From positions 1 through 35,287 of the forward strand of contig JAJRZA010000104.1 in the NCBI GenBank assembly GCA_024275485.1: 35,287 bases of DNA. Reading direction: 5' to 3'. The number at the start of each line of letters is the position of its first letter. The first letter of the stretch is position 1. The notes beneath the pieces are model-generated. The model was not told the DNA's origin, made no database searches, and was given only the letters and a program-made list of their open reading frames with translations. Position numbers and translations under genes: made by a program. This stretch comes from Candidatus Krumholzibacteriota bacterium. GTDB taxonomy: Bacteria; Krumholzibacteriota; Krumholzibacteriia; LZORAL124-64-63. Below, one piece after another: positions 9,564 through 34,413 of the stretch.

Positions 9564-11730
9564 TTATTCCCACCGTTGCTGCCAAGCTTCCGGTTGTTCC
9601 CTGCAAAAACGATCAAACCATTCCAGCAGCATGGTGCGATGAGACACTCGATTGTCCCAGCTATCACTGATGCCGTGCCCTTCACCCGGAAAAACATCCA
9701 TTTCCACCGTTCGGTCCAACACCGACAAGGCCGTAAACAGCTGATCCGATTCACCGGGTGGAACGTTGGTATCGGCCGTGCCGTGCAACAGCAGCAAGGG
9801 GGTGTTGATTCGGTCCGCCCGGAACAACGGGGAATGCTCCACGAAGTATTGCTGGTCGTCCCAGGGTGTTGCCCCACCAAGGGCCATGTCGCCGTAAGTC
9901 CATCCCCAGGCCCCTTGACCCCAGTAACTGGCCAGATCGCTGATACCGGACATGGACACGGCTGCAGCATACATATCGGTGGTGGTGATCAGGTACTCGG
10001 TCATGAACCCACCGTAGGATCCGCCATAGACTCCCATGGCATCCCGATCCAGCCACGGATTCTGTTCCAGGATATTGACGGTGCCATCGACAATATCAGC
10101 CGCCGCGAGAGTGTTGAAGCGGCGGATAAAACCAAGCCTCGATTTCGACACCCCCGGTGCCCACGAAACTGGCCTCCACCGGTTCACTCCAAAGCCAGTT
10201 TTCGTCCCAACCGGCCGCAAAGCTCTCCAGCAAACGGCTCTTGCCCCCAGTTTCGGCACTGTACAAGGAGCCCGGGTCACTCGTGGAGGAGGCGGAAAAA
10301 AGAAGGCCCCCGCCATCGGGGCTGACGGCCAGGGATCCCAGGCTCTCACCAGACAATTCAATCAACTCCACCGCCCAGTCTTTTTTCGGATTCAGCCGAG
10401 CCAGCTTTTTATAGGACTTGTCGGTTGTCAGAACCAGCAACCCGCCCTTGCTGTCGAACCGTGGCAGACCACCGCCCACATCAAAGGCCAAATTCAAATC
10501 AGTGGTTAAACGCTCGAATTTTCCCGTTGCCAGATCCAATCGCCAGATCTGCTTGTTGTAGACGTTGTGCTTGGTGCAGTGTTTGGGAATGGAAGATGGA
10601 TTTACCGTCCGCAGAAAAAATCGCGTCGTCCAGCACCTTGTCAGCCGGGGTGGTCAGTACTCGTCGGGCACCGGTGACGAGGTCCAACAAGTGCAGGTGG
10701 GGCACCGGAGTGAAGTCGGTCACCCTTTCGCGCGGGTGGACGTATCGGCGGTTGCCCTCTTCAGGGTCGGCTTCTGCGTACGCCGCCGTGGAAGCAAAAA
10801 GCAGGTATCGACCATCTGGACTGATTTTCATCATGCCCAGACCGGGTTCGTCACGCAAAACCGTGCGCATGGGCCCCGCGGGTCCACTCCAAACCAAAAG
10901 ATCAGAACCTTCGTCCCCTGGTTGACGCAGGAGCAGGTCTTCACTGTCCGGTAAAAATGCAACTGGCTTGGCTTTACCGCCACCAAGACCCGAAGCCAAC
11001 AAGCGTCCCTTTTGGTCCATAACATCGAGACGGTCCAACTCCGGTTCCCGGCGACTGAGTTTTCGAACCATGATTTTGCCACCATCGGGCATGGCCAAAG
11101 ATCCGACCCGCAGTTGGCTGGCATAGTCTTCAAACCGCGTCAAGGGGACCTGGCGCTGCAAAGTCCACTCGGCCCTGGTGGCGTCGATCACCCTGGCGAT
11201 CAGACTGGTTGACCCAACCGCACGGCCATAAACCGTGACCCAACCTGGGTCCAGGGTCGTATTTCCAGTGAATTCATCATCGGCTCCTTCGGAGTCCAAC
11301 TTTTCACCATTACAATACAAAACCGTCACACCTGTAGACTGAATTCCACTTCCGCCCTGGAATCCAGATGCAATACTGCTGCCAGCCAATGGATATCCTC
11401 ATCAGGGAAACGAACCGAGCCATCGGCCCCGCAATCCACTTGTTGCCATTGCAGATCCTGGCCTGGCACCAGGGAAAAATTCAGGTCCGGGTTGGGCAAA
11501 ACCCGGCCGGGATCAATTTCCGGCACCTCTTGATGCTCTCCGCGGGGAAACGAGGCAACTTCGGTGACCGCAGGGGTGGGCAAGGGTCCCAGAACCAGGA
11601 TTTGGTTGGAAATGACCTCCTCAAGCGGATCGTCCTGTGGATCCTCCCCAGCCTGAACCGAAGGATTCACAAGCCCTGACAGATAAACCAGGGCAACTGC
11701 CAGAACAAGGGAATTGCGTGTGCAGAACAT
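9564..11730 (-). pseudogene. Decayed secreted S9 prolyl-oligopeptidase-family peptidase
   Basis: The gene begins at ATG 11730 with AAGGAG six bases upstream and a signal peptide (TRNSLVLAVALVYLSGL). Reading the peptidase requires four frame segments. The first ends near 11340 (EVEFSLQ, continuing as GVTVLYCNGE one base over). The second is a beta-propeller-like region with SPDGRYLLFAS to about 10580, where the next segment resumes with NKQIWRLDLATGKFERLT. The third stops after VEIEAWFYPP near 10120, where the hydrolase domain should begin. The fourth resumes at ADIVDGTVNILEQNPWLD. Catalytic Ser (GGSYGGFM), Asp (HGTADTNVP) and His (GEGHGI) remain. About 80 residues normally found between the third and fourth parts, including the HGGP oxyanion region, are absent in every frame, so a deletion as well as frameshifts occurred. 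No active enzyme can be made from this sequence as given. Confidence 0.85.
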
Positions 11731-11801
11731 AAAATCTCCTTGGCAGATTAAAACTCTGTAAGAACTCTGGAACAGATCTTGCGATGTCAACAATATCGAT
11801 T

Positions 11802-11830
11802 ATTGTACCGCCGACAAGCAAGAATTCCAA
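11802..11830 (-). promoter_or_regulatory. Putative sigma-70 promoter of the S9 peptidase remnant
   Basis: On the minus strand, TTGGAA (11825-11830) and TACAAT (11802-11807) are separated by 17 bases, a good match to vegetative -35 and -10 elements. Transcription would start near 11795, about 65 bases before the ATG at 11730. The inverted-repeat element at 11838 begins only 7 bases upstream of the -35 box. Confidence 0.4.
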
Positions 11831-11837
11831 TGATTGG

Positions 11838-11974
11838 GTTGTGCCCCGGAGAATGTTGCTGGGCCTAAAACCGGCCCCTTTTTTGATGTACAGCGTATTT
11901 TTAATGTGTTTGAAGTTGCAGTTTATGGGTATTTTTGGCTTTTTGGAGATCAGCAACATTCTCTTGGGCACAAC
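11838..11974. mobile_element. 137-bp inverted-repeat element, MITE-like
   Basis: Two 24-base arms, 11838-11861 and 11951-11974, are complementary at 22 positions: GTTGTGCCC, two unmatched bases, then GAGAATGTTGCTG, against its complement on the right. They enclose 89 bases that are much richer in A and T than the surrounding genes. A third copy of the arm (20 of 23 bases) occurs at 35108, beside an unidentified leftward gene. This suggests a short non-autonomous transposable element, with the arms as terminal inverted repeats. No clean target duplication is seen; CAATGAT occurs on both sides (11828 and 11980), but is not flush with the right arm. A structured intergenic RNA is the alternative. 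Confidence 0.55.
11861..11884 (+). terminator. Rho-independent terminator-like hairpin inside the inverted-repeat element
   Basis: A 5-bp GC stem, GGGCC (11861-11865) with GGCCC (11873-11877), and a 7-base loop are followed by six T residues (11879-11884). No rightward gene ends here, so it would block read-through into the CBM48 gene at 12004 or act as an attenuator. The stem is short, so the call is modest. Confidence 0.35.
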
Positions 11975-12003
11975 CTTCACAATGATGGATGAGGGAGAAA
12001 ACC

Positions 12004-12321
12004 ATGGGTCTGCAAATACGTTTTCTGAAATCAAGGCCGATCGGCAAGGTTACTTTCCGTTTGCCGAAAGAAGCTGCCGCCGAAGCCACCGCCGTCAATC
12101 TTGTGGGTGAGTTCAACAACTGGGACAAGACCACATTGCCCATGACCCGCTTGAAAAATGGTGAATTTAAAGTCACCATCGATTTGCCCGTGGGTCGCGA
12201 GTACCACTTTCGATATCTGATCAGCAATCCCGAGGGCACAACCTGGGAAAACGATTGGACTGCTGACAAATATGCGTCCAGTGGCTTTTTCGGATCAGAA
12301 AACTCGGTTTTGGTTCTCTAA
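12004..12321 (+). CDS. Stand-alone CBM48 (glycogen-binding, isoamylase N-terminal-like) protein
   Basis: The 105-residue product is a single CBM48/AMPK-beta-type domain. It shows VTFRLPKEAAAEATAVNLVG, the signature GEFNNWDKTTLPM with the Trp expected to stack on glucose chains, and the strand GREYHFRYLI ending in WENDWTADKY. This family binds alpha-glucans such as glycogen. There is no signal peptide, so it should be cytoplasmic. The ATG at 12004 follows GGAG at seven bases; an ATG at 11989 lies upstream in frame but has no ribosome site. No catalytic domain is attached and no glycogen gene is nearby, so it may act as a targeting or sensing subunit. Such short proteins are known in several bacterial phyla without assigned roles. 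Confidence 0.85.
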   Translation: MGLQIRFLKSRPIGKVTFRLPKEAAAEATAVNLVGEFNNWDKTTLPMTRLKNGEFKVTIDLPVGREYHFRYLISNPEGTTWENDWTADKYASSGFFGSENSVLVL

Positions 12322-12371
12322 GGAATCCCTCTAAAGGTTTTACTTATTTGGCCGACAATCAGGCAGACTTC

Positions 12372-12447: not shown

Positions 12448-14496
12448 ATGAGTTTGCGGCAGAAAATCCTGCTCCCAATCCTGCTGTCTGTTTTTGTTGC
12501 AGGAATTGGGACTTTTATTGGCGTTACAATGACGGTGGGTGATCTGGTTGACAGCCAGGTTGCCGACAAACAGAGTTCTCTCAAGAAAAATATGGACCAG
12601 GCCGTGGATGTTAAGATCCATGAGTATCATGCTTTCCTTCAGGCCGCCGAAACAGAAGCCTTGAATCAGGCTGCCGTCTTTACCGAATTGCCTGAAGTAC
12701 ATGCTGCCTACAATCTGGCCATGAGCGGAAATATCAACAATGAATCCGATGCCATCTGCCAGCAAGCCCGGGAACAACTGCGTCAGGTGGTGGCTCCTTT
12801 TGCCAGTGGATACAGTGCCCGCACTGGAAACAAAGACTTCCGCATGCATTTCCATTTGCCAAGCAATCGCAGCTTTGTCCGGGTTTGGCGCAAAGACTGG
12901 CAGGCCAAGCGTGGCGGAAAGAAAGTCGACATCAGTGACGACTTGAGCAGCTTCCGCAAAACAGTTGTTCAGGTGAACAAAACCCATCAGCCTGTCAGTG
13001 GCATTGAGATTGGTCGCGGCGGCTTTGTGGTTCGGGGCGTGCAACCGATCAATTCCAATGGCAACCACCTTGGGTCCGTGGAATACATGACGGGTTTCCT
13101 GCCCATCGCCCAAAACCTTGTTGGCAGCGACAAGGAAAATTTCGCCATCTACATGGCTGCGGACAACCTGTCCACGGCTCGCAAACTCCAGGACCCAGTA
13201 AAGTATCCAGTATTGGCTGACAAATACGTCTTTTGCGCCGCCACCAATCCCGAATTGGCCCGTCAGATGGCCAGCCCGGAATTGCTTGATCAGGGTTTGA
13301 AAGGCAAAACCCTCATTGTTAAAGACAACTTTCAGGTGGCCGCCTTCCCCATTGAAGACTTTTCCGGCAAACCGGTGGGTGTGATACTGATGACCCTGGA
13401 CATCTCCCAGGATCTTGCCGCCATGGCCGCCATCGAAGCGGAAGGAAGTCGCGCCACCACCGGTTTGATGGTCGGGATTGGCATTGCCACCATCATCGCC
13501 ATGCTCCTCATTGGTGGATTGATGTTCGTCATCGTGCGCCGCATCAACAACACCCTTGAGATTTTGATTCAGGATTTGTCGGCCGGGTCGGATCAGATCA
13601 CCCAGGCCAGCAACCAGGTGGCCGGATCCAGTGGTCAGCTGGCCGAAAGTTCCGGCACTGCTGCCGCCAGCCTGGAAGAAACAGGTGCATCGCTCACGGA
13701 GATGGCCAGCCAAACCCAGAGCAACAGCAATACTGCCGATAAAGCCAGCCAGATCGCTTCTGCTGCCCGCACCGCCTCCGAAAAAGGCATGGAGGCCATG
13801 GAGCGGTTGAACGACAGCATCAGCAAGATCAAGGATTCCTCCGACCAGACTGCCAAAATTCTCAAGACCATCGACGAGATCGCTTTCCAGACCAATCTTT
13901 TGGCCCTGAACGCGGCTGTGGAAGCCGCCCGGGCGGGAGATGCCGGCAAAGGCTTTGCCGTGGTGGCCGAAGAGGTGCGCAACCTGGCCGGGCGCAGTGC
14001 CGAAGCGGCCCGCAGCACCGCCGGCCTGATCCACGAGAGTCAGGAAAATTCCAACAATGGGGTGGTCGTCAACTCTGAAGTGGCCGAGATGCTGGCCACC
14101 ATCAACGAAGAAATCGGCAAGGCCGCAGAGTTGATGGGCGAAGTCAACATAGCCAGCAGCGAACAATCCCGGGGTATCAACGAAATCACCAAAGCCGTGG
14201 ATTCACTGGACCAGGTTACCCAGAGAAATGCCGCCAGCAGCGAAGAGATCGCCGCCGCCGGGGAAGAGCTTTCAGCCCAGGCCCATGAATTGGATAACAT
14301 GGTCGGTGTGCTTGTTGAATTGGCAACCGGGAGGAAACCGGAGGGTTCCGGGTATCCGGCCCCGGTCTCCTACAACCCGCCTGCGTCAAATCCTGTTGCG
14401 GCGGCCGCACCCGCAGCCTGGAATTCGGCACCTGCACCTGGGGCTGCCCCCAATGTTGTCATCCCTCTGGATGAAGATGAGGAAATCGTCATTTGA
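12448..14496 (+). CDS. Methyl-accepting chemotaxis protein with double-Cache periplasmic sensor
   Basis: The 682-residue product is a transmembrane chemoreceptor. A first membrane segment (about residues 7-30) and a second (about 339-362, [20 protein letters not shown]) flank a large periplasmic sensor. The sensor fits the dCache_3 type: [20 protein letters not shown], then [33 protein letters not shown] and [11 protein letters not shown]. The cytoplasmic signalling domain has the invariant CheA/CheW-contacting tip around residues 476-517 ([38 protein letters not shown]). No clear HAMP domain lies between the second membrane segment and the coiled coil, where one is usual. The C-terminus is a Pro/Ala-rich tail ending in acidic LDEDEEIVI, not the NWETF-type CheR docking site. 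The ATG has GAGG eight bases before it. Ligand unknown; no chemotaxis kinase is nearby. Confidence 0.93.
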
Positions 14497-19151: not shown

Positions 19152-21068
19152 CTACTTCACCATCTCCACTGTCTTCTTCGGATTGATCAGCAATATATTC
19201 GGATGGTCCTTGTTGGGATCAGCTCCCTCTTCAATCAGGCTCACCACTTCTTCCGGACTCAATTCCGGTTTGACGGTGAAAAGTTTCGCGGCCAGGTTGC
19301 AGACATTGGGGGAAGCCATGCTGGTGCCGGACATCTTCATGGTACCACCACCGGGAATTTCACTCTCCACCTGGAAACCGTTGGCATAGACCCGCACGTT
19401 GCGTCCGCCGCTGGTGAAGCTGGTGGGATTGCCCGCCTGGTCCACCGCACCGATAATCATCAGGTTCGGCATATCGAAACTGGACGGAATCACCACATCG
19501 AATTCCACATCGTTGTCGTCGTTGCCGGCAGCGCTGACGAAGAGAATTCCCGGCGCCGCAGCCATGGAGTCGTGCAACCCCTTGCTGAGAACATCAATCA
19601 TTTCACGAGCCATCTTGGCCCGCTCTTCGGCGTTCTCACCCACACCGTTGGCTTCCAGGCTGCCTTCAATTTCCTTGAAGGTCCAGCCCCAGCTCATGTT
19701 TACCACACGCACGTCGTGCTGGGCAAAATATTTGGTGGTGGCCAGGTAATTTTCGGCCAGGCGCTGGGCTGTTTCCATGGTCATGGCCTGGGGTGTCGGG
19801 TGGTAATCGAAGGTGATCCGGGCCACCAGGATTTTTGCGTAGGGATTGCCTTTGGTCGCGATACCGGCCACGTGGGTGCCGTGACTGAATAGACCGCCAA
19901 AACTGAGGGAAGTCAGGAAATCACCAACATCTTCAGGAGGCATGTTGGCCATCTCGCCGCGTACATCACTTGCGGCTTTGCTGTCGATGGCACTGGTCAA
20001 ATCGGTGAAGCCCTGCATGTAGTCGAAGACCTTGTCCAGCTTGCCGTCCTGGTCGCCGAGAGGATGCAGCATTTGAGAATTGGCAACGCCGTCCAGATCG
20101 AAAGCGATGCCGTGCACATCGTCCACCCAACCATTGCCGTCGCTGTCGAGGCCATCAAGAATTTCGGCTTCGTTGACATACATCCGACGGCCGAAAACCT
20201 TGGCGTCCACTCCGGAATCCCAGATGCCGACCACCACATCGGGTCGCATTACTTTGTCCGTGAAAATGAATTCGCGGGCGGGCCAGATGTTCTTCTTTTC
20301 CACCGCGTTTTCCTTGAGATACTGACTGTAGATTTTGGCCACCACCGGGTTCAGTGGCAAAATCTCGTCCATGGCGTAACGCATGCCGATGATGGTACCG
20401 GCCTGGTCGGCGCTCATCTCACCGGTGGAGGCCACGGCCGGATTCAACTGGGATTGCACAACCCCACGCAAAAAATTCTCACTCAAAAACTCGGCGCGAC
20501 CCTTGCCGGATTTGATTTTATCCTGGACGATTTCATAAGGCAGTTGGTTCACATGGGCCTGCAGCTCCGCCCCAAAAGCATCCTGCAATTCCTGCTGGGT
20601 GTAATTCCCAGACAGTTTACCCTTGGCCGCGATCAGGGCGCGGACCGTCATGCCGCTGGTCAGGCGTGAGGCCTCCTTGTCTTCCAGGATCGCCACTTCA
20701 CCCAAAAACCTGAGGGCCTCGTCGTTGCGGCCGTCAATGACCGCAAGAGTGGCCAGGGTGCGATATTTTCCCTGGAGGGTGGCGGTATCCTTGATCTCGT
20801 ATTTGGCCAGGTCGGCCTCCAGGTCGGCACGAAACAGGGTGCGCAGGTCCGCCAGGGCAGCGCGGTCGTCCAGCAATTCGCTCATGGTTCCCTTGATGGG
20901 GTAGGTATGAACCGGAAGCTCGTCCAGGCTGGTGATTTTGATTTTTTTGATGGTCGGGACAATCGGGGCCTGGGCTGGTTTGGAGGATGCGCATCCTCCT
21001 GCCAGGAAGAGGGCCAACAACAGGAGGGCGTAAAGGCCTACAACGGTGAATTGAGCGTAGCGTTTCAT
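19152..21068 (-). CDS. Subtilisin-like (S8) serine protease, lipoprotein
   Basis: The 638-residue product begins with a lipoprotein signal (LLLALFLAGGC, lipidated Cys about residue 25) after a strong GAGGAG site before the ATG at 21068; a longer in-frame start lacks the signal. Residues about 40-270 form an Ala- and Leu-rich helical N-terminal domain. The S8 catalytic domain follows: Asp284 in GIWDSGVDAK, His396 in SHGTHVAGIA, oxyanion Asn in VSAAGNDD, and Ser583 in SGTSMASPNV. The triad is complete, so it should be active at the cell surface or in the periplasm. The Asp-to-His spacing (112 residues) is about three times that of subtilisin. The insert contains DSDGNGWVDD, like a calcium-binding loop. 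It is divergent from the receptor-like gene at 21251. Confidence 0.9.
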   Translation of the reverse strand: MKRYAQFTVVGLYALLLLALFLAGGCASSKPAQAPIVPTIKKIKITSLDELPVHTYPIKGTMSELLDDRAALADLRTLFRADLEADLAKYEIKDTATLQGKYRTLATLAVIDGRNDEALRFLGEVAILEDKEASRLTSGMTVRALIAAKGKLSGNYTQQELQDAFGAELQAHVNQLPYEIVQDKIKSGKGRAEFLSENFLRGVVQSQLNPAVASTGEMSADQAGTIIGMRYAMDEILPLNPVVAKIYSQYLKENAVEKKNIWPAREFIFTDKVMRPDVVVGIWDSGVDAKVFGRRMYVNEAEILDGLDSDGNGWVDDVHGIAFDLDGVANSQMLHPLGDQDGKLDKVFDYMQGFTDLTSAIDSKAASDVRGEMANMPPEDVGDFLTSLSFGGLFSHGTHVAGIATKGNPYAKILVARITFDYHPTPQAMTMETAQRLAENYLATTKYFAQHDVRVVNMSWGWTFKEIEGSLEANGVGENAEERAKMAREMIDVLSKGLHDSMAAAPGILFVSAAGNDDNDVEFDVVIPSSFDMPNLMIIGAVDQAGNPTSFTSGGRNVRVYANGFQVESEIPGGGTMKMSGTSMASPNVCNLAAKLFTVKPELSPEEVVSLIEEGADPNKDHPNILLINPKKTVEMVK

Positions 21069-21250
21069 GATTTCTCCTCTAGGGGATGACTTCAGCCACT
21101 TCATTTGCCCCCCATTTTCGCCCCCAGGGCCAGGAAAATCCATATTTTCAATGAAAAATCAGTAAACCCAACTTGTTTTTAGACGAATCAATGCACAGAA
21201 CACCGGGAGAATCACGCCCGCTGATTGTTTGGCATTGATGGAGGAAATCC

Positions 21251-23389
21251 ATGTCCACGCGGCATCTTATGAACATCGGAATGGGGACGGTCGCTCTTTT
21301 GTTGGCGGCTTCAGTGGGTCTTGTCTTCAACTCCCTTGGAGATCGGGAGGCGGATCAAGCTCGAATTGAGCTGGCAATGAGCCAACAGGGTATTGTCCAG
21401 AACATATCCCGGCAGGCGACAGACTTGGCCAATGCCGACAATTTGGTCCTGGTCCGCCAGGCACGTCAGGAGCTGGGTTCTTCCATTCTCCTTTTCGACC
21501 AGAACCTGGCGACATTGCTGTATGGAGGAACCATCACCGACCAGGACGGCAAAGAAATCAAACTGACAGGTGCCAGATCCTCCTTCGCCAAAACCGAACT
21601 AGGTACCGTGGCCGAACTATGGATCCAAACAGGTTTGCCCCTGGCGGATCTAGCCGCTGGTGAATTCAGTATTTTCAGTTCCGCCGGACAAAATGCCCTG
21701 GACGGACTGAGGGACAATGGCACCGACCTGGTGAACCATCTCGGTGAAGCCGTTGAGGGTTTGCAGGCCGAAGTGCAGACTCGTCACGCCAAGGGCAACC
21801 TCGCACGCTGGATGGCCCTGGGTCTGACCGCAGCCTTCATTGGCCTTGGACTTCTCCGTTTCAAACCAGCACCAAAATCTCCAATTCAAGTCCCGAAGAG
21901 TACTACCTTGACCCCCATGGCCACCGCTCCGGACGCATCGGATTCGGCTGAAGCTCCTGCGGTCCCATCATCGCCGGAAGCTGCCCAGGCGTGGGACAGC
22001 CAGCCTCATAAAAAATTCATTTCACCGGTGGATTTCGACAACGTGAACGCCTCGGTGGACCAATTGTCCGTGGACATGAACACCATCGCCAGCAGCACTG
22101 ACAAAATGGGTCTGGCCATCGACTCGGTGGGCTTCGCCATGCAGGGTATGTTGTTCAGCCTGCAACAAATGGCCCAGGACACCGCCGAAGGTTACAAGAT
22201 CGTGCGCGGCGCCAACAATGCCGCCACCTACACCCACAACACCGCCGGCGAACTGGCCGAATCAGCCCAGGAGATGAGTCGAGTGGTGGCCAGGGTGACC
22301 CAATTGGCCATGAAAACCAAACAGGTGGCAGGGCAAATCGAGGCCGAGGCGGTAAGCACCGGCAGCACGGGTGAAGCTTTCACTTCCGTGGTGGCAAGCG
22401 AGGTCAAGGGTTTGGCACAGCAAACATCCCGGGCTACCGCAGGCATCGAACAGACGGTGGCCGAAATCCTGGGTACTGCCCGCAAGTATGAAGATGCCAT
22501 CGGGCAGATACTCAAGAATATCAGTGGTATCAACAAGGTGAGTGAGAATTTCGGAGAAATGATGTTGCACCCGCCGAATGCTGGTGTAGCTGGAACTCCG
22601 CTGCCGGCAGCGGCGCCATTGTCCCTGTCCCCGCAGCCAGTTGCCGTCAGCCCTGTTGACCAACCAGTTGCTCAACCGGTTGAGCAACCGGTTGAGCAAC
22701 CGGCTGAAGACCCGGATGTTCCAAATATCATTGAGCCTGCAGCCGTAGCAAAACCTGAGTCGGCACCGGAGCCTGCCCCGAAACCGGACAGTGGAATTCA
22801 AGTCGACGACCCGGTGGTCATTGAACCCACAAGCGAGGAAGTTGCTGAAAAGACCGCCTCGGCCATCGAAGAAACAGCCGCCGATCCTGAATCCAGCGGC
22901 AGCTCCGGCAATGTCTTTATGCTAGGCGGAGCGCCCAAAAAAGCCAAGGCCAAACCAGCCCTGGCAGAAAAGCCCAAAGAGGATCCCAAAAAAGAGCCCG
23001 AACCCGAGCCCAAGGCCGGAGAATCGGCACCGAATGAAGAAGAGGATGATGGATCCAACATCTTTATGCTCAACAAACCTGAAGAAACGCCGGTGGCCAA
23101 AACTGAAGAACCGGCGGCAGCAGCACCGGAGCCGGAACCTGAACCAGCACCTGATCCCGAGCCCGAGCCCGAATCCGAGCCCAAAGCTGAAGAACCCGCT
23201 GTTGCCGAGGAAAAAAAGGACGGCGGCGCCAATGTCTTCATGCTCAACAAACCCAAAGATGCTCCGGCGGCCGCTGCCGAAGAGACACCTGTAGACCAGG
23301 AGGAGGCCGTCACCGTGCCGGCCGATGCTGAAGAAGAAAAGAAAGACGACGGTGGTGGCAATATATTTATGTTGAACAAGCCTAAGTAA
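21251..23389 (+). CDS. Receptor-like membrane protein with degenerate chemoreceptor coil and repeated NxFML tail motif
   Basis: The 712-residue product starts at an ATG with a strong GGAGG site. A first membrane segment (about residues 8-27) and a second (about 186-205) enclose a 155-residue periplasmic region. A Pro/Ala linker leads to a helical region (about 262-437) whose middle resembles a chemoreceptor hairpin: VARVTQLAMKTKQVAGQIEA, then GEAFTSVVASEVKGLAQQTS. The tip residues that grip CheA and CheW in true receptors ([17 protein letters not shown]) are lost. The last 275 residues are a disordered Pro/Glu/Ala tail. It has four motif copies, centred on Asn554, Asn603, Asn661 and Asn704: NVFMLGG, NIFMLNKPEE, NVFMLNKPKD and NIFMLNKPK at the very end. 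It is divergent from the subtilase gene. Function unknown; a scaffold or sensor that no longer signals through CheA is my inference. Confidence 0.8.
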   Translation: MSTRHLMNIGMGTVALLLAASVGLVFNSLGDREADQARIELAMSQQGIVQNISRQATDLANADNLVLVRQARQELGSSILLFDQNLATLLYGGTITDQDGKEIKLTGARSSFAKTELGTVAELWIQTGLPLADLAAGEFSIFSSAGQNALDGLRDNGTDLVNHLGEAVEGLQAEVQTRHAKGNLARWMALGLTAAFIGLGLLRFKPAPKSPIQVPKSTTLTPMATAPDASDSAEAPAVPSSPEAAQAWDSQPHKKFISPVDFDNVNASVDQLSVDMNTIASSTDKMGLAIDSVGFAMQGMLFSLQQMAQDTAEGYKIVRGANNAATYTHNTAGELAESAQEMSRVVARVTQLAMKTKQVAGQIEAEAVSTGSTGEAFTSVVASEVKGLAQQTSRATAGIEQTVAEILGTARKYEDAIGQILKNISGINKVSENFGEMMLHPPNAGVAGTPLPAAAPLSLSPQPVAVSPVDQPVAQPVEQPVEQPAEDPDVPNIIEPAAVAKPESAPEPAPKPDSGIQVDDPVVIEPTSEEVAEKTASAIEETAADPESSGSSGNVFMLGGAPKKAKAKPALAEKPKEDPKKEPEPEPKAGESAPNEEEDDGSNIFMLNKPEETPVAKTEEPAAAAPEPEPEPAPDPEPEPESEPKAEEPAVAEEKKDGGANVFMLNKPKDAPAAAAEETPVDQEEAVTVPADAEEEKKDDGGGNIFMLNKPK
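22661..22708 (+). repeat. Four tandem 12-bp units coding for Gln-Pro-Val-Glu-type repeats
   Basis: Units at 22661, 22673, 22685 and 22697 read CAACCAGTTGCT, CAACCGGTTGAG, CAACCGGTTGAG and CAACCGGCTGAA. They encode QPVA, QPVE, QPVE and QPAE in the linker of the receptor-like protein. CAACCGGTTG is itself palindromic. The unit number may vary by slippage without a frame change. Confidence 0.75.
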
Positions 23390-23411: not shown

Positions 23412-23444
23412 AAAAACCGGATCGAGCGATCGGTCCGGTTTTTT
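23412..23444 (+). terminator. Intrinsic terminator after the receptor-like gene
   Basis: AAAAACCGGATCG (23412-23424) pairs with CGGTCCGGTTTTT (23431-23443), with one G-U pair, around a 6-base loop. The stem ends in a run of six T residues. It begins 22 bases after the receptor-like gene's stop and separates it from the decarboxylase gene. Confidence 0.8.
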
Positions 23445-23493
23445 GTATCCTATTGTCTGCCATATCAAATTCATTTCTCCCATGGGAGCCCTC

Positions 23494-24906
23494 ATGAATG
23501 CCGAAGAATTCCGCAAACACGGCCACGACCTCATCGACTGGGTAGCCGATTATCTGGAGAATGCCGAACAATATCCGGTTTTGTCACGCAGCCTGCCCGG
23601 TGAGATTCGTGCCCAACTGCCGGATCATCCACCAGAAGACGGTGAGTCCATGGACCAGATTTTGGATGATTTTCGGCGCATCATCCTGCCCGGGGTGACC
23701 CATTGGAACCATCCCCGGTTTTTCGCCTACTTCCCGGCCAACAACAGCGGGTCATCCATACTGGGCGAACTGCTCTCGGCCGGTCTCGGGGTAAACGCCA
23801 TGCTGTGGCAGACCAGTCCGGCAGCTACGGAACTGGAAGAAACTGTCATGTCATGGCTGGGCGAATTGATCGGCTTGCCCGAGGGATTTCATGGTGTGAT
23901 CCAGGACACTGCCAGCACCGCCACCCTCTGCGCCCTGGTTTGTGCCCGGGAAAGAACCACCGCCCACTCCATCAATCGCATGGGCCCCGAAGGATTGGCC
24001 GGGGCCGGAAGTCTGCGCATCTACACCTCCAGCGAGGCCCACAGTTCGGTCTTGAAAGGAGCCAAGATTGCCGGTTTCGGTGCTCAGAATGTCGTCCTGG
24101 TGGAAACCGACGAGAAACTGGCCATGGATCCCGAAGATTTGGATCGCCTCATCGGCATGGACCTGGCGGGAGGTCTTGTCCCCTGTTGCATTTCAGCCAC
24201 GGTGGGCACCACCAGCAGCACCGCCATGGATCCCCTGGTTCCCATCGGGGCCATTGCCAAACGTCATGGTTTGTGGCTGCATGTGGACGCCGCCCTGGCC
24301 GGTAGCGCGGCCATCGTCCCGGAGTATCGCTGGATATTTGACGGCATTGAAGCCGCCGACTCCCTTGTTTTCAACCCCCACAAATGGTTGCTGACCAACT
24401 TTGACTGCTCGGCCTACTTTGTTAAGGATCCAGTACATTTGCAACGCACCATGGCCATCAATCCCGAGTATCTGAAAACCAATCAAGACCATGAAGTGAA
24501 CAATTTTCGGGACTGGGGCATTCCCCTTGGGCGCAGATTCCGGGCCTTGAAATTGTGGTTTGTCCTGCGCAACTATGGTGCGACTAAATTGCGGGAAATC
24601 ATCGCCCTGCACATTGGGTTGGCAAAAATGTTTGCCGGTTGGGTTGATGAGAGTTCCCAGTGGGAATTGCTGGCTCCCGTGCCACTCAATACGGTGTGTT
24701 TTCGCTGGAATCCCGGTGGGCTGGATGAGGCGGAGCTTGAGGTCCGGAACAAAGCCCTGCTGGATAGGGTCAATGCCGAAGGGACCATCTATCTGACACA
24801 CACCAAACTGAAAGGGACGTTTGCCTTGCGAGTTGCCATTGGTCAGACCGCTACCCGCAACAAACATGTGGTTGAAGCCTGGGAAAAATTGAACAGTTGC
24901 CTTTGA
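23494..24906 (+). CDS. Group II PLP-dependent amino acid decarboxylase (aromatic-type)
   Basis: The 470-residue product is a cytoplasmic PLP enzyme of the DDC/tyrosine/tryptophan decarboxylase family, which removes CO2 from amino acids to give amines. It shows THWNHPRFFAYFPANNSGSS, then LWQTSPAATELEETVMSWLG, then HSSVLKGAKIAG, the cofactor Asp in HVDAALAGSA, and the PLP lysine Lys297 in NPHKWLL. The C-terminal domain is complete and the length matches bacterial aromatic decarboxylases. The substrate (Trp, Tyr, Phe or another) cannot be set by eye. The ATG at 23494 is chosen because GGGAG lies six bases before it and the family starts here; the frame is open back to 23443. A terminator lies just upstream, so it has its own promoter. 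The glucosaminidase gene follows by 33 bases. Confidence 0.9.
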   Translation: MNAEEFRKHGHDLIDWVADYLENAEQYPVLSRSLPGEIRAQLPDHPPEDGESMDQILDDFRRIILPGVTHWNHPRFFAYFPANNSGSSILGELLSAGLGVNAMLWQTSPAATELEETVMSWLGELIGLPEGFHGVIQDTASTATLCALVCARERTTAHSINRMGPEGLAGAGSLRIYTSSEAHSSVLKGAKIAGFGAQNVVLVETDEKLAMDPEDLDRLIGMDLAGGLVPCCISATVGTTSSTAMDPLVPIGAIAKRHGLWLHVDAALAGSAAIVPEYRWIFDGIEAADSLVFNPHKWLLTNFDCSAYFVKDPVHLQRTMAINPEYLKTNQDHEVNNFRDWGIPLGRRFRALKLWFVLRNYGATKLREIIALHIGLAKMFAGWVDESSQWELLAPVPLNTVCFRWNPGGLDEAELEVRNKALLDRVNAEGTIYLTHTKLKGTFALRVAIGQTATRNKHVVEAWEKLNSCL

Positions 24907-30768: not shown

Positions 30769-33700
30769 TCAGACACTGGGAATATTTTTCTTTTTGTTCT
30801 TCTGATACACAACCCCACTGGAAATAATCAGGATCAGCATTCCAATGTTAAATCCATGCACCCAAGCAGGCACCGTGGCAGCTTCACCTGCGCCATAACT
30901 ATGCAACCCAACGAGGAAGTAGTTTACCCCGAAATAGGTCATCAGCACAGAGTCGATGATCACCCAGTTCCAGGCGGCACTGAGCCAAAAGCTGCGCATC
31001 TTCGGGAGAAAGCGGAAATGCAGACCAACCGACGCCACCAGAATGGTGATCAAAGACCAGGTTTCCTTGGGGTCCCAGCCCCAATACCGTCCCCAACTCT
31101 CATTGGCCCACACTCCACCCAGCAGAGTGCCGATGCTCATCATGCCGATGCCCACCACCAGAATCCAGAAGTTCACCTTGTCCAGGGCCTTGAGGCTGAA
31201 ATCCAGGTTCTCCCGGCCGGCTTCGTCCTTTTTCAAGGCGCGCACCAGGATGAGAATCATGATCATCACCCCGAGCAGGAATGCCAGGCCGAACAGGGCA
31301 TAGCTGCCGGTGATCACCGTCACATGAATGTTCAACCAGTAGGAAACCAGAACCGGCACCAGGGGCCCGATGGCCGGATCGAACATGGACAGCATCGAGA
31401 CCCCTACAATGATCAAGGTCAGCAGCGCAGCCAAGCTGGCGGGCAAACTGATGCGAAAAATCAGCTCGCTGATCAACCCGGTAACCACCGCAGCCAGGCT
31501 GATGAACAACAACGACTCGTGGCCATTGCTCAAGGGTGCCCGCCCGGAGGCTATCCAGCGCAGCACATAGCCGTAGATCATTCCCACGGCACCAATGGTA
31601 TACAACACCATGCCTATGCTGTAAAAAATGTTCCGGAAACTAACCTTGGCCAGGCGATTTTTGAACAGGTTCCACAAGAACACACCCATCAGAATGAGGA
31701 ACGCTCCCAGCAGAGGAATCATCATGTAGGAAAAAATGTGATTCTTGTTGTAGGAAAGTTCGGCGGCCAAGCGAGCATCCGAAGGTATCACCGCGGATCC
31801 ATACTGATGTTGAATGTCGTTTATGCCGCGCAAACCAGCCATGATCTGGCTGTTGTCGCCGGTTTTGAGTCCCTTCATCAAACTGCTGTAGGCCATGTTG
31901 TACTGGTCGGCTTGTTCGGGGGTCAGGCGCGAACCCACGTCGCTTATATCCAACCAGGTGTTGTTCACATCACCGGGCACCGGGAACATGCGCAGGGTCG
32001 TGCCCTGGAAAGTCATGTAGAGCAAATTGAATCGTTCGTCGAAAGTCAGCAGTTTGCGCTGAACCTTGCTACGTTCCGGATCAGGTTTGCGATGGGCCTC
32101 GCGCACCTGGTCCATCATGCGGTAGCTGCCATTTTCGAACATGCTGGCCATGCTCACCCGTTTGGTGGATGGATCCACTCCCAGCAGGTTTTTTAATCCG
32201 CCGTGCCGCACACCGATCACTTCCTGGTCCCACCAGAACGAAGGATTCGCTGTCCAGTTCAGGAACATGTCCACGGGATGACGCTTCTGGAATTTGGTGG
32301 ACTTGGCCACCTTCATGGTCATTTCCCGGGCCAGGGTATCGAGGGGTTTCATGCGACCCTGGAAATCCTGGATCACCAGGCGACTCGCCAATTCCCGGGC
32401 CGGGTCACTTAGGGCAATAAAACCCTTGGCGGCCACCGGGGCATGATTGTGCCCATCGTTCTCACCGTGCTCCTGGGCACGGGCTGTTCCGATTGAGCCC
32501 AACGCCAGCAACCCTACCAACAGCACTGCTGCCACACTTTCCGTTTTCCCACTCTTTTTCTTGCGCGGGAACAACAGATTTTTCAGGATCGTCAAGAGGA
32601 ATCCCAGGGTGAGCAGGGAGTAACCGATGTAAGTGGGGATCTTGCCGGGATCGTGGTTCACCGAAAGCACTGTTCCCTTTCGGTCAGCGTCGTAGGACGA
32701 CTGGAAATGCTTGCTTCCGCCATGAGAAAGGGGGTGATTCATATAGATATGAAAACTCTGGTCGACAATGCCCTGCCCAGGATCGTTGAGCAACACATGG
32801 CTCTCGTAGGTGGCTGGATTGTCGCTACCAGGGTAGGTGTCCAATACGAAATCTTCCAACGTCAAACTGTAACCCAGCTTCATCTGTACCGGACCGAAAC
32901 TCAGCTTCAACGGGCGACCACCGAGGTCCACCCTTTCGGCCGGAGAATATTTGACGCAAATGGCCGAAGCCTCATTGCCCTGGCTGTCACGAATGGTCAG
33001 CCGGGCGGCGGGCGGAGCGTTGGAGTTGTCACTGTGGGAGGGTTTCAAAACCACCGAGCTCATGACCTTGACCGGCACAAAACTGAAGCCCTGGGCATCG
33101 TTGATATAGAGCATTTCCTCCCGTACGGCGAAAACCTCCCCCGCGGCAACTTCCGAGCGTTCCTCCGAGTTCATGTCCATGGCCGAAATGGGGAACGAAG
33201 CCCTGGCCTGCAGGCCATCGGCAGTATGGTAGGAAAATTCGATACCTGAACTAACGGAGTAAAGCAGGTCCAGATCGGCAAAGGGATCTTCACCACCGCT
33301 GTGCCCCATGCTGAAATCGGGATGCAGGGCAAAGAGCAGACGCTCTCCGCTGCGACCATCGTTGTCGCTGATCGCCACGCGAATCATGGGATTGGTCAGG
33401 GGCCCTTCGGGGTGGGACTCGCCACCCACCGCGTACGAAGTCTGGAATTCGACAATTTCCAGAGCAAGGTCCCCGCAGTTGTGCACCGTGCCGTCAGGAA
33501 TCCCCACCGGGATGCTACAAGACTCGCCACCGGAATGCACTCGCAAATCACCATAGGGAGACACGCTCATCTCCCCGGAAAAACCACGGGTCAGAAAATG
33601 CGCCGGCACGGAACCGATTTTGCCGCGCTCACCGGCGGTCAGGATATGGGTGGTAATATCGCCCCCCATGCTCACACCGAACTGCACACCAGGAGGGCCA

Positions 33701-34236
33701 CCCGGACCTTCATCGTAGATTTCGGTGAAGTTGGCCCAGAACTCGGTGATGCCCAGTTCAAACTGCTCACCTTCGAGGGTGACTTTTTGCCATTGGTCCA
33801 CCTTGCCAGGTTTGAACAGGCGCACTGGATAACTGGCTTCCTGTTTGCCGGTGCTCACTTTGGCGTGAACCTTGGCCGATAGGATATAATCCACGGTTGC
33901 ACCCTCGCGAATGGGCATCACACCTTCATAACCAAAGTAGCGGGTGATTCCGGAGGCGATCAGAATCACGATCATCGATAGATGCAGGAGCATAAACCCA
34001 CTCTGTTGCCGTCGATACGGCATGCGCTTTAAGAACGAAAGCATCAGGTTGATGACGAAAAGCGCCAAGGTGGCCTCAAACCATGAGGCGGCATAGATCA
34101 TTTGGTATGCTGCATCCCGACCACCATAGAAGGACTCGATGAATGTGCCGAAGATGCTGCCTATTGCAACGATCGTCATGAGGGCCGCGCCAAGTTTCAC
34201 CGACGAGAGAAACTGGAGCACAGGATTCTTGAACAT
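30769..34236 (-). CDS. Fused ResB-CcsA cytochrome c biogenesis protein (System II)
   Basis: This very long gene (1155 residues) encodes both System II partners, which bring heme to the periplasm and attach it to apocytochromes c. The N-terminal ResB part starts with the family opening FLSSVKLGAALMTIVAIG and IGSIFGTFIES, then three more membrane segments. A large periplasmic part (about 100-590) ends in LLTLGFLLTILKNLLF. A second hydrophobic stretch with an ARAQEH end (about 610-630) introduces some 200 more periplasmic residues. The CcsA part (about 850-1155) has several segments and the heme-handling WWD-type motif WGRYWGWDPKETWSLI near residue 1050, with conserved His in WLNIHVTVI and VGLHSYG. 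Fused forms occur in Bacteroidota and Campylobacterota. The start at 34236 is chosen because the family begins there; the open frame runs back to 34368. It is divergent from the beta-barrel gene. Confidence 0.92.
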   Translation of the reverse strand: MFKNPVLQFLSSVKLGAALMTIVAIGSIFGTFIESFYGGRDAAYQMIYAASWFEATLALFVINLMLSFLKRMPYRRQQSGFMLLHLSMIVILIASGITRYFGYEGVMPIREGATVDYILSAKVHAKVSTGKQEASYPVRLFKPGKVDQWQKVTLEGEQFELGITEFWANFTEIYDEGPGGPPGVQFGVSMGGDITTHILTAGERGKIGSVPAHFLTRGFSGEMSVSPYGDLRVHSGGESCSIPVGIPDGTVHNCGDLALEIVEFQTSYAVGGESHPEGPLTNPMIRVAISDNDGRSGERLLFALHPDFSMGHSGGEDPFADLDLLYSVSSGIEFSYHTADGLQARASFPISAMDMNSEERSEVAAGEVFAVREEMLYINDAQGFSFVPVKVMSSVVLKPSHSDNSNAPPAARLTIRDSQGNEASAICVKYSPAERVDLGGRPLKLSFGPVQMKLGYSLTLEDFVLDTYPGSDNPATYESHVLLNDPGQGIVDQSFHIYMNHPLSHGGSKHFQSSYDADRKGTVLSVNHDPGKIPTYIGYSLLTLGFLLTILKNLLFPRKKKSGKTESVAAVLLVGLLALGSIGTARAQEHGENDGHNHAPVAAKGFIALSDPARELASRLVIQDFQGRMKPLDTLAREMTMKVAKSTKFQKRHPVDMFLNWTANPSFWWDQEVIGVRHGGLKNLLGVDPSTKRVSMASMFENGSYRMMDQVREAHRKPDPERSKVQRKLLTFDERFNLLYMTFQGTTLRMFPVPGDVNNTWLDISDVGSRLTPEQADQYNMAYSSLMKGLKTGDNSQIMAGLRGINDIQHQYGSAVIPSDARLAAELSYNKNHIFSYMMIPLLGAFLILMGVFLWNLFKNRLAKVSFRNIFYSIGMVLYTIGAVGMIYGYVLRWIASGRAPLSNGHESLLFISLAAVVTGLISELIFRISLPASLAALLTLIIVGVSMLSMFDPAIGPLVPVLVSYWLNIHVTVITGSYALFGLAFLLGVMIMILILVRALKKDEAGRENLDFSLKALDKVNFWILVVGIGMMSIGTLLGGVWANESWGRYWGWDPKETWSLITILVASVGLHFRFLPKMRSFWLSAAWNWVIIDSVLMTYFGVNYFLVGLHSYGAGEAATVPAWVHGFNIGMLILIISSGVVYQKNKKKNIPSV

Positions 34237-34413
34237 TGCTTTCACGAAGACCACCCGGGTTATCACGATTCTCCAAGGGCGGGCCCCAAAAAAAACCGTA
34301 TTCATTAGGGAGAATATTTTAGTGTGTGAAATATAATCACTGAAACTGTGATCGCCCATGAAAATCACTGTTGAATCAGATAAATCGATTTCGAAAATAA
34401 TTTCATCCGGATG

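Follow-up and report, generated by a model that had tools for sequence, protein, structure and literature searches.

The 712-residue receptor-like protein encoded at 21251..23389 (+ strand, stop codon included) of the window, the whole stretch of 35,287 nucleotides analysed here, is best read as a chemoreceptor paralogue that has been converted into a membrane-anchored scaffold on which chemotaxis proteins dock, with CheV as its most likely client, a reading to which we give a probability of roughly 40%. The repeated peptides of its cytoplasmic tail very probably form a docking array under selection; that the client of this array is a chemotaxis protein is slightly favoured, and the narrower identification of the client as CheV, which draws on co-occurrence among genomes, is plausible at somewhat less than even odds. 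The preliminary description had proposed a multivalent docking array and possibly a new signalling or scaffold system: the array is the best reading of the orthologues and the codon analysis, whereas the novelty gives way to a remodelled McpN-like chemoreceptor whose distribution is tied to known chemosensory machinery, CheV especially.

The periplasmic sensor, two membrane segments and chemoreceptor-like coil described at the outset are borne out by a structure model, fold matches and the Pfam MCPsignal family. The model is shallow (12 sequences, pTM 0.32), and all receptor features given here lie on the + strand. The first transmembrane helix spans about residues 5-28 (21263..21334; helix 2-28 in the AlphaFold model) and is followed by a periplasmic helical bundle of the PilJ/NarQ/McpN fold (about residues 29-188; 21335..21814; pLDDT mostly above 85) and by a second transmembrane helix seen in both sequence and model (about residues 189-205; 21815..21865). 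A disordered Pro/Ala/Ser linker (residues 208-260; 21872..22030; pLDDT below 50) then leads to an MCP-like helical hairpin at 22034..22567, delimited by Pfam, the model and the codon analysis, with an N arm (residues 262-370), a turn (371-375) and a C arm (376-439). With a periplasmic sensor between two membrane helices and a predicted antiparallel cytoplasmic hairpin, the modelled protein has the layout of an MCP. The remainder is a Pro/Glu/Ala-rich cytoplasmic tail (residues 440-712; 22568..23386) that composition and pLDDT values below 50 over most of its length mark as disordered, presumably in vivo as well.

The periplasmic bundle points to the origin of the protein. Compared with the PDB by Foldseek, it matches McpN (6gcv_C) and NarQ (6xyn) with target TM-scores of 0.72 and 0.76 and E-values of about 0.01-0.02, and Pfam PilJ gives a weak match in two of 12 orthologues. 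No orthologue contains the nitrate N-box of McpN-type sensors, [IVL]-[ND]-x-A-G-x-Q-R-M-L-[ST]-Q (PMC6381276); of three related ordinary receptors that were compared, two have it. These two (L083:1216-2901 and L084:1201-3039) are McpN-like chemoreceptors with an exact N-box (INLAGRQRMLSQ), a HAMP domain and an intact tip; judging from their sequences, they are likely to serve the family as nitrate receptors and to represent the type from which the tailed protein arose. Among the paralogues, the closest are ordinary chemoreceptors of the McpN-like kind, tail-less and equipped with HAMP and an intact tip, and the tailed protein is therefore taken to be a remodelled chemoreceptor. It shares the periplasmic bundle fold, the two membrane helices and a recognisable hairpin with the McpN-type nitrate chemoreceptor (PilJ LBD, HAMP, MCPsignal), but lacks the N-box and HAMP, has a replaced tip and a truncated C arm, and has gained a long motif-bearing tail.

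Remodelling is most evident in the cytoplasmic signalling region. No HAMP match was found between the second membrane helix and the hairpin in 12 orthologues, whereas the paralogues do have HAMP; since the 53-residue linker in its place is predicted to be floppy, conformational signals would hardly reach the hairpin and rigid transmission to a kinase appears unlikely. Pfam MCPsignal (PF00015) recognises residues 327-424 only (E=3.7e-7; 30.6 bits, below the 34.6-bit cut-off), and a match of some strength occurs in 12 of 12 orthologues, the best at E 1e-8. In the model, the returning arm of the hairpin is cut down to about 64 residues, against about 150 beyond the tip in paralogous receptors, and the coil codons are strongly constrained (dN 0.017 vs dS 0.73). 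The canonical CheA/CheW-binding tip, QTNxLALNA.xEAARAG[ED], is intact in seven MCPs from this and related genomes and is replaced in all orthologues readable there; in the studied protein the corresponding position reads KTKQVAGQIEAEAVSTGSTGEAFTSVVA, within a replaced stretch at residues 352-392 (22304..22426), and the orthologue consensus is [KR]TxxVAxQI[ED]xEAxxTGxTGEAFTSVVA, where the tip of ordinary MCPs ends in [ED]xGxGFAVVA. As the orthologues have the same version in common, this tip is a conserved replacement and not the product of drift: the canonical CheA/CheW contact had rightly been described as lost, but the position is far from unconserved.

The genomic surroundings were considered as a source of functional clues. 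A subtilase gene (19152-21143, - strand; lipoprotein-like signal by eye) is divergent from the receptor gene at a distance of 107 bp, and a PLP-dependent decarboxylase gene (23443-24906, + strand) starts on the same strand about 50 bp downstream of the receptor ORF. Both flank the receptor gene in several genera, an arrangement that may be functional or just conserved order; it was set aside as an operon clue, since much of the wider gene order is conserved too and no core chemotaxis gene, cheV included, adjoined the receptor gene in the neighbourhood comparison. An ordinary MCP gene lies 7 kb off within the window (12448-14496). Elsewhere in the window, a gene for a 1199-residue fusion of ResB and a CcmF-like protein (CcsBA type, cytochrome c assembly; 30769-34368, - strand) has counterparts in the vicinity of the receptor gene at about 11 loci, and a prolyl-oligopeptidase-like (S9) gene (9567-12324, - strand) is split over three reading frames; the latter is a single open frame in the closest relative (L034:1661-5149), and the broken copy is either a pseudogene or the result of assembly frameshifts.

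The tail holds the four copies of N-[VI]-FML that had been reported, starting at residues 554, 603, 661 and 704 and thus spaced by 49, 58 and 43 residues: NVFML within NVFMLGGAP (residues 554-558; 22910..22924), NIFMLNKP within NIFMLNKPE (603-610; 23057..23080), NVFMLNKP within NVFMLNKPK (661-668; 23231..23254) and NIFMLNKPK (704-712; 23360..23386), the last being the exact C-terminus, directly followed by the stop codon; NKP follows the core in three of them. Across the family the motif takes a looser form than the original N-V/I-F-M-L, which holds for the studied protein: N-[VI]-[FY]-x-L-x-[KR]-P occurs in one to six copies in 18 orthologues with a readable tail, and up to six copies are kept down to about 37-41% overall identity. 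Individual copies have their own flavours among the orthologues, with NVFMLGG first, NIY.L late and NIFMLNKPK last. Ahead of copy 1 lies a second conserved element, EPTxxEVAExTxxAIEExA, predicted from the model and the orthologue comparison to form a short helix (residues 528-543; 22832..22879) and possibly a separate docking site.

Chance is ruled out as the source of the motif by the orthologues and by shuffling of the 273-residue tail, in which 200,000 rounds yielded a single copy once and two copies never. Nor do the copies appear to be fresh duplications, because identical motif residues are encoded by differing codons among the copies within the studied protein. That the motif is held by selection while the spacers drift, as first suggested, is confirmed by the orthologues and by codon analysis: between this genome and its closest relative, 13 changes fall on the 17.7 synonymous sites of the motif codons and a single amino-acid change on their other 78 sites, and motif dN is 0.013 against a spacer dN of 0.208, with synonymous sites near saturation. 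A tailed homologue devoid of the motif had been named at the outset as a refuting observation; the nearest approach to one is found in G010 only (locus L022), where vestiges such as KVFQLGKP take the place of intact copies and the tip has diverged as well. A search for the motif as a DNA pattern in 78 genomes, along the lines proposed in the preliminary description, matched almost only the receptor gene; the few scattered matches elsewhere were about as frequent as those of a reversed-pattern control, which rules out a motif common to a family of client proteins, and no canonical MCP inspected carries it. The segment NIFMLN resembles NLLALN of the canonical tip, a likeness provisionally set down to coincidence, since the copies differ from one another at position 6 and in the residue preceding L. 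To our knowledge, the tail motif is unlike any CheV or CheW ligand.

Orthologues are confined to one GTDB family in Krumholzibacteriia, where they occur in 25 of 38 genomes, with none in 42 other genomes of the class, a set that also covers the whole phylum as represented in the collection; a scan of a wider genome collection returned orthologues from the same group only, plus a handful of distant matches to MCP-like proteins of ordinary type. Metagenome assemblies make up most of the genome set, and the absence of a gene can be due to assembly loss; two orthologues (G013 and G025) are cut by contig ends before the tail and are counted among the genomes lacking an intact array. FliG is present in all 37 family genomes searched.

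Within this family, the distribution of the array coincides with that of CheV, a CheW domain joined to a receiver: 18 of the 20 genomes that have a multi-copy motif encode it, as does one of the remaining 18 in the family (Fisher p=1.9e-7, phylogeny not corrected). The two array genomes without CheV, G032 and G020, are one a 980-contig and one a 65%-complete assembly. Only one genome, G002, has CheV and no receptor; it is also missing the gene found beside the receptor elsewhere, and for that reason an assembly gap is suggested. CheV is likewise absent from all three genomes whose orthologues have degraded motifs (G010, G022 and G024), and G023, of the same genus as the latter two, has both motif array and CheV. 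CheW-domain counts are higher in motif-array genomes (Mann-Whitney p=2e-6); abundant CheW alone does not bring CheV, since 13 of 19 tested genomes of other families of the class have CheW domains and none has CheV by this query. The co-occurrence is nonetheless correlative and comes from a single clade, and it is confounded both by common descent and by how rich a genome is in chemotaxis genes overall. Two side observations may be added: a small PilZ-domain gene lies directly upstream of cheV in most of these genomes (e.g. L123:4516-5933, G000:C33), hinting at a cyclic-di-GMP input next to CheV, with nothing to tie the PilZ protein to the receptor, and a CheW-CZB-like protein, identified by eye from sequence, occurs in a few genomes only (G018, G027, G029 and G030).

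Taken as a docking scaffold, the protein would have descended from an McpN-like receptor: the periplasmic bundle, the two membrane helices and the hairpin are retained, and the nitrate box, HAMP relay and CheA/CheW-binding tip are gone, along with roughly one half of the hairpin's returning arm. The hairpin is expected to dimerise. Each N-[VI]-[FY]-x-L-x-[KR]-P copy would serve as a short docking peptide on disordered spacers, and several copies on a dimer would give high avidity, so that the client, CheV or, as the next choice, another Che protein, would be held at or near the receptor cluster, conceivably with an effect on swimming. In a still more tentative and rather unlikely extension, a receptor lineage without helical-tip coupling recruits phosphorylatable CheV through its new motif array, as a membrane-tethered CheV reservoir or an array tether. 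A precedent exists in that phylogenetic profiling previously tied CheV to one receptor group, that of Salmonella McpC (PMC4742279), whose profile tracks CheV as that of the tailed protein does. Receptors of the McpC type carry signalling domains of the usual kind, on which CheV is proposed to contact the same spot as CheW, in the hairpin; the tailed protein has no canonical tip left, and its docking would run through the tail.

Several other explanations bear on the same observations. A localisation scaffold, whose tail docks a protein outside chemotaxis (a polar landmark, the cytoskeleton or an enzyme) and which merely occurs in the same lineages as CheV, agrees with the lack of an adjoining che gene and with a linker and lost tip that suggest no kinase control; we consider it unlikely, as the presence of the protein closely tracks chemosensory gene content and CheV and loss of the motif coincides with absence of CheV. 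Self-association is improbable: N-[VI]-F-x-L segments acting as beta-prone stickers could cross-link receptors into a condensate or cluster with no separate partner, in keeping with the stickers-and-spacers layout, the several copies and the hydrophobic core, but a specific receptor site is suggested by copy-specific conservation and by the N, L and [KR]P that are kept on either side of that core.

Somewhat less probable again is an adaptation-enzyme tether, in which the motifs would be a divergent C-terminal pentapeptide holding CheR or CheB near receptors. The layout is the same as in the NWETF tether, a short hydrophobic peptide starting with N at the end of a flexible C-terminal receptor linker; the tailed protein nevertheless differs from it in sequence and in having several copies, internal ones included, with V/I and L at positions 2 and 5 and basic flanks after the motif, and the canonical MCPs inspected lack the motif. 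Such pentapeptides follow xZxxZ, where Z is F, W or Y (PMC7390727), a pattern from which the C-terminus NIFMLNKPK departs, and a CheR/CheB pentapeptide proper is accordingly rejected. Membrane-touching anchors, with hydrophobic-basic peptides holding the tail against the inner membrane, would account for the K(P)K that comes after IFML in most copies, but are very unlikely: the conserved Asn and Pro and the short core make no amphipathic helix, and first copies often have no basic part directly after the core (NVFMLGG). A decaying receptor pseudogene with a low-complexity tail, brought to mind by the lost tip, HAMP and N-box, is refuted by an intact gene in most family genomes and by strong purifying selection on coil and motif.

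Recruitment through repeated short peptides is a design known from eukaryotic condensates. A limited literature search found no description of it for chemotaxis proteins, nor of this tailed receptor family. An analogy is found in the pyrenoid, where the membrane protein BST4 depends for its localisation on a client-binding motif that occurs twice in its long disordered C-terminus (PMC10680556); the Rubisco-binding motifs of BST4 and EPYC1 resemble the present array in working only, with no homology, a eukaryotic setting and Rubisco as the client. If the docking-scaffold reading is true, a chemoreceptor was turned into a multivalent recruiting scaffold by giving up a folded contact surface and taking on short repeated peptides in its stead. 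As the docking peptide is short and defined, its binding to CheV or other Che proteins is directly testable, and the outcome would bear on the unclear role of CheV.
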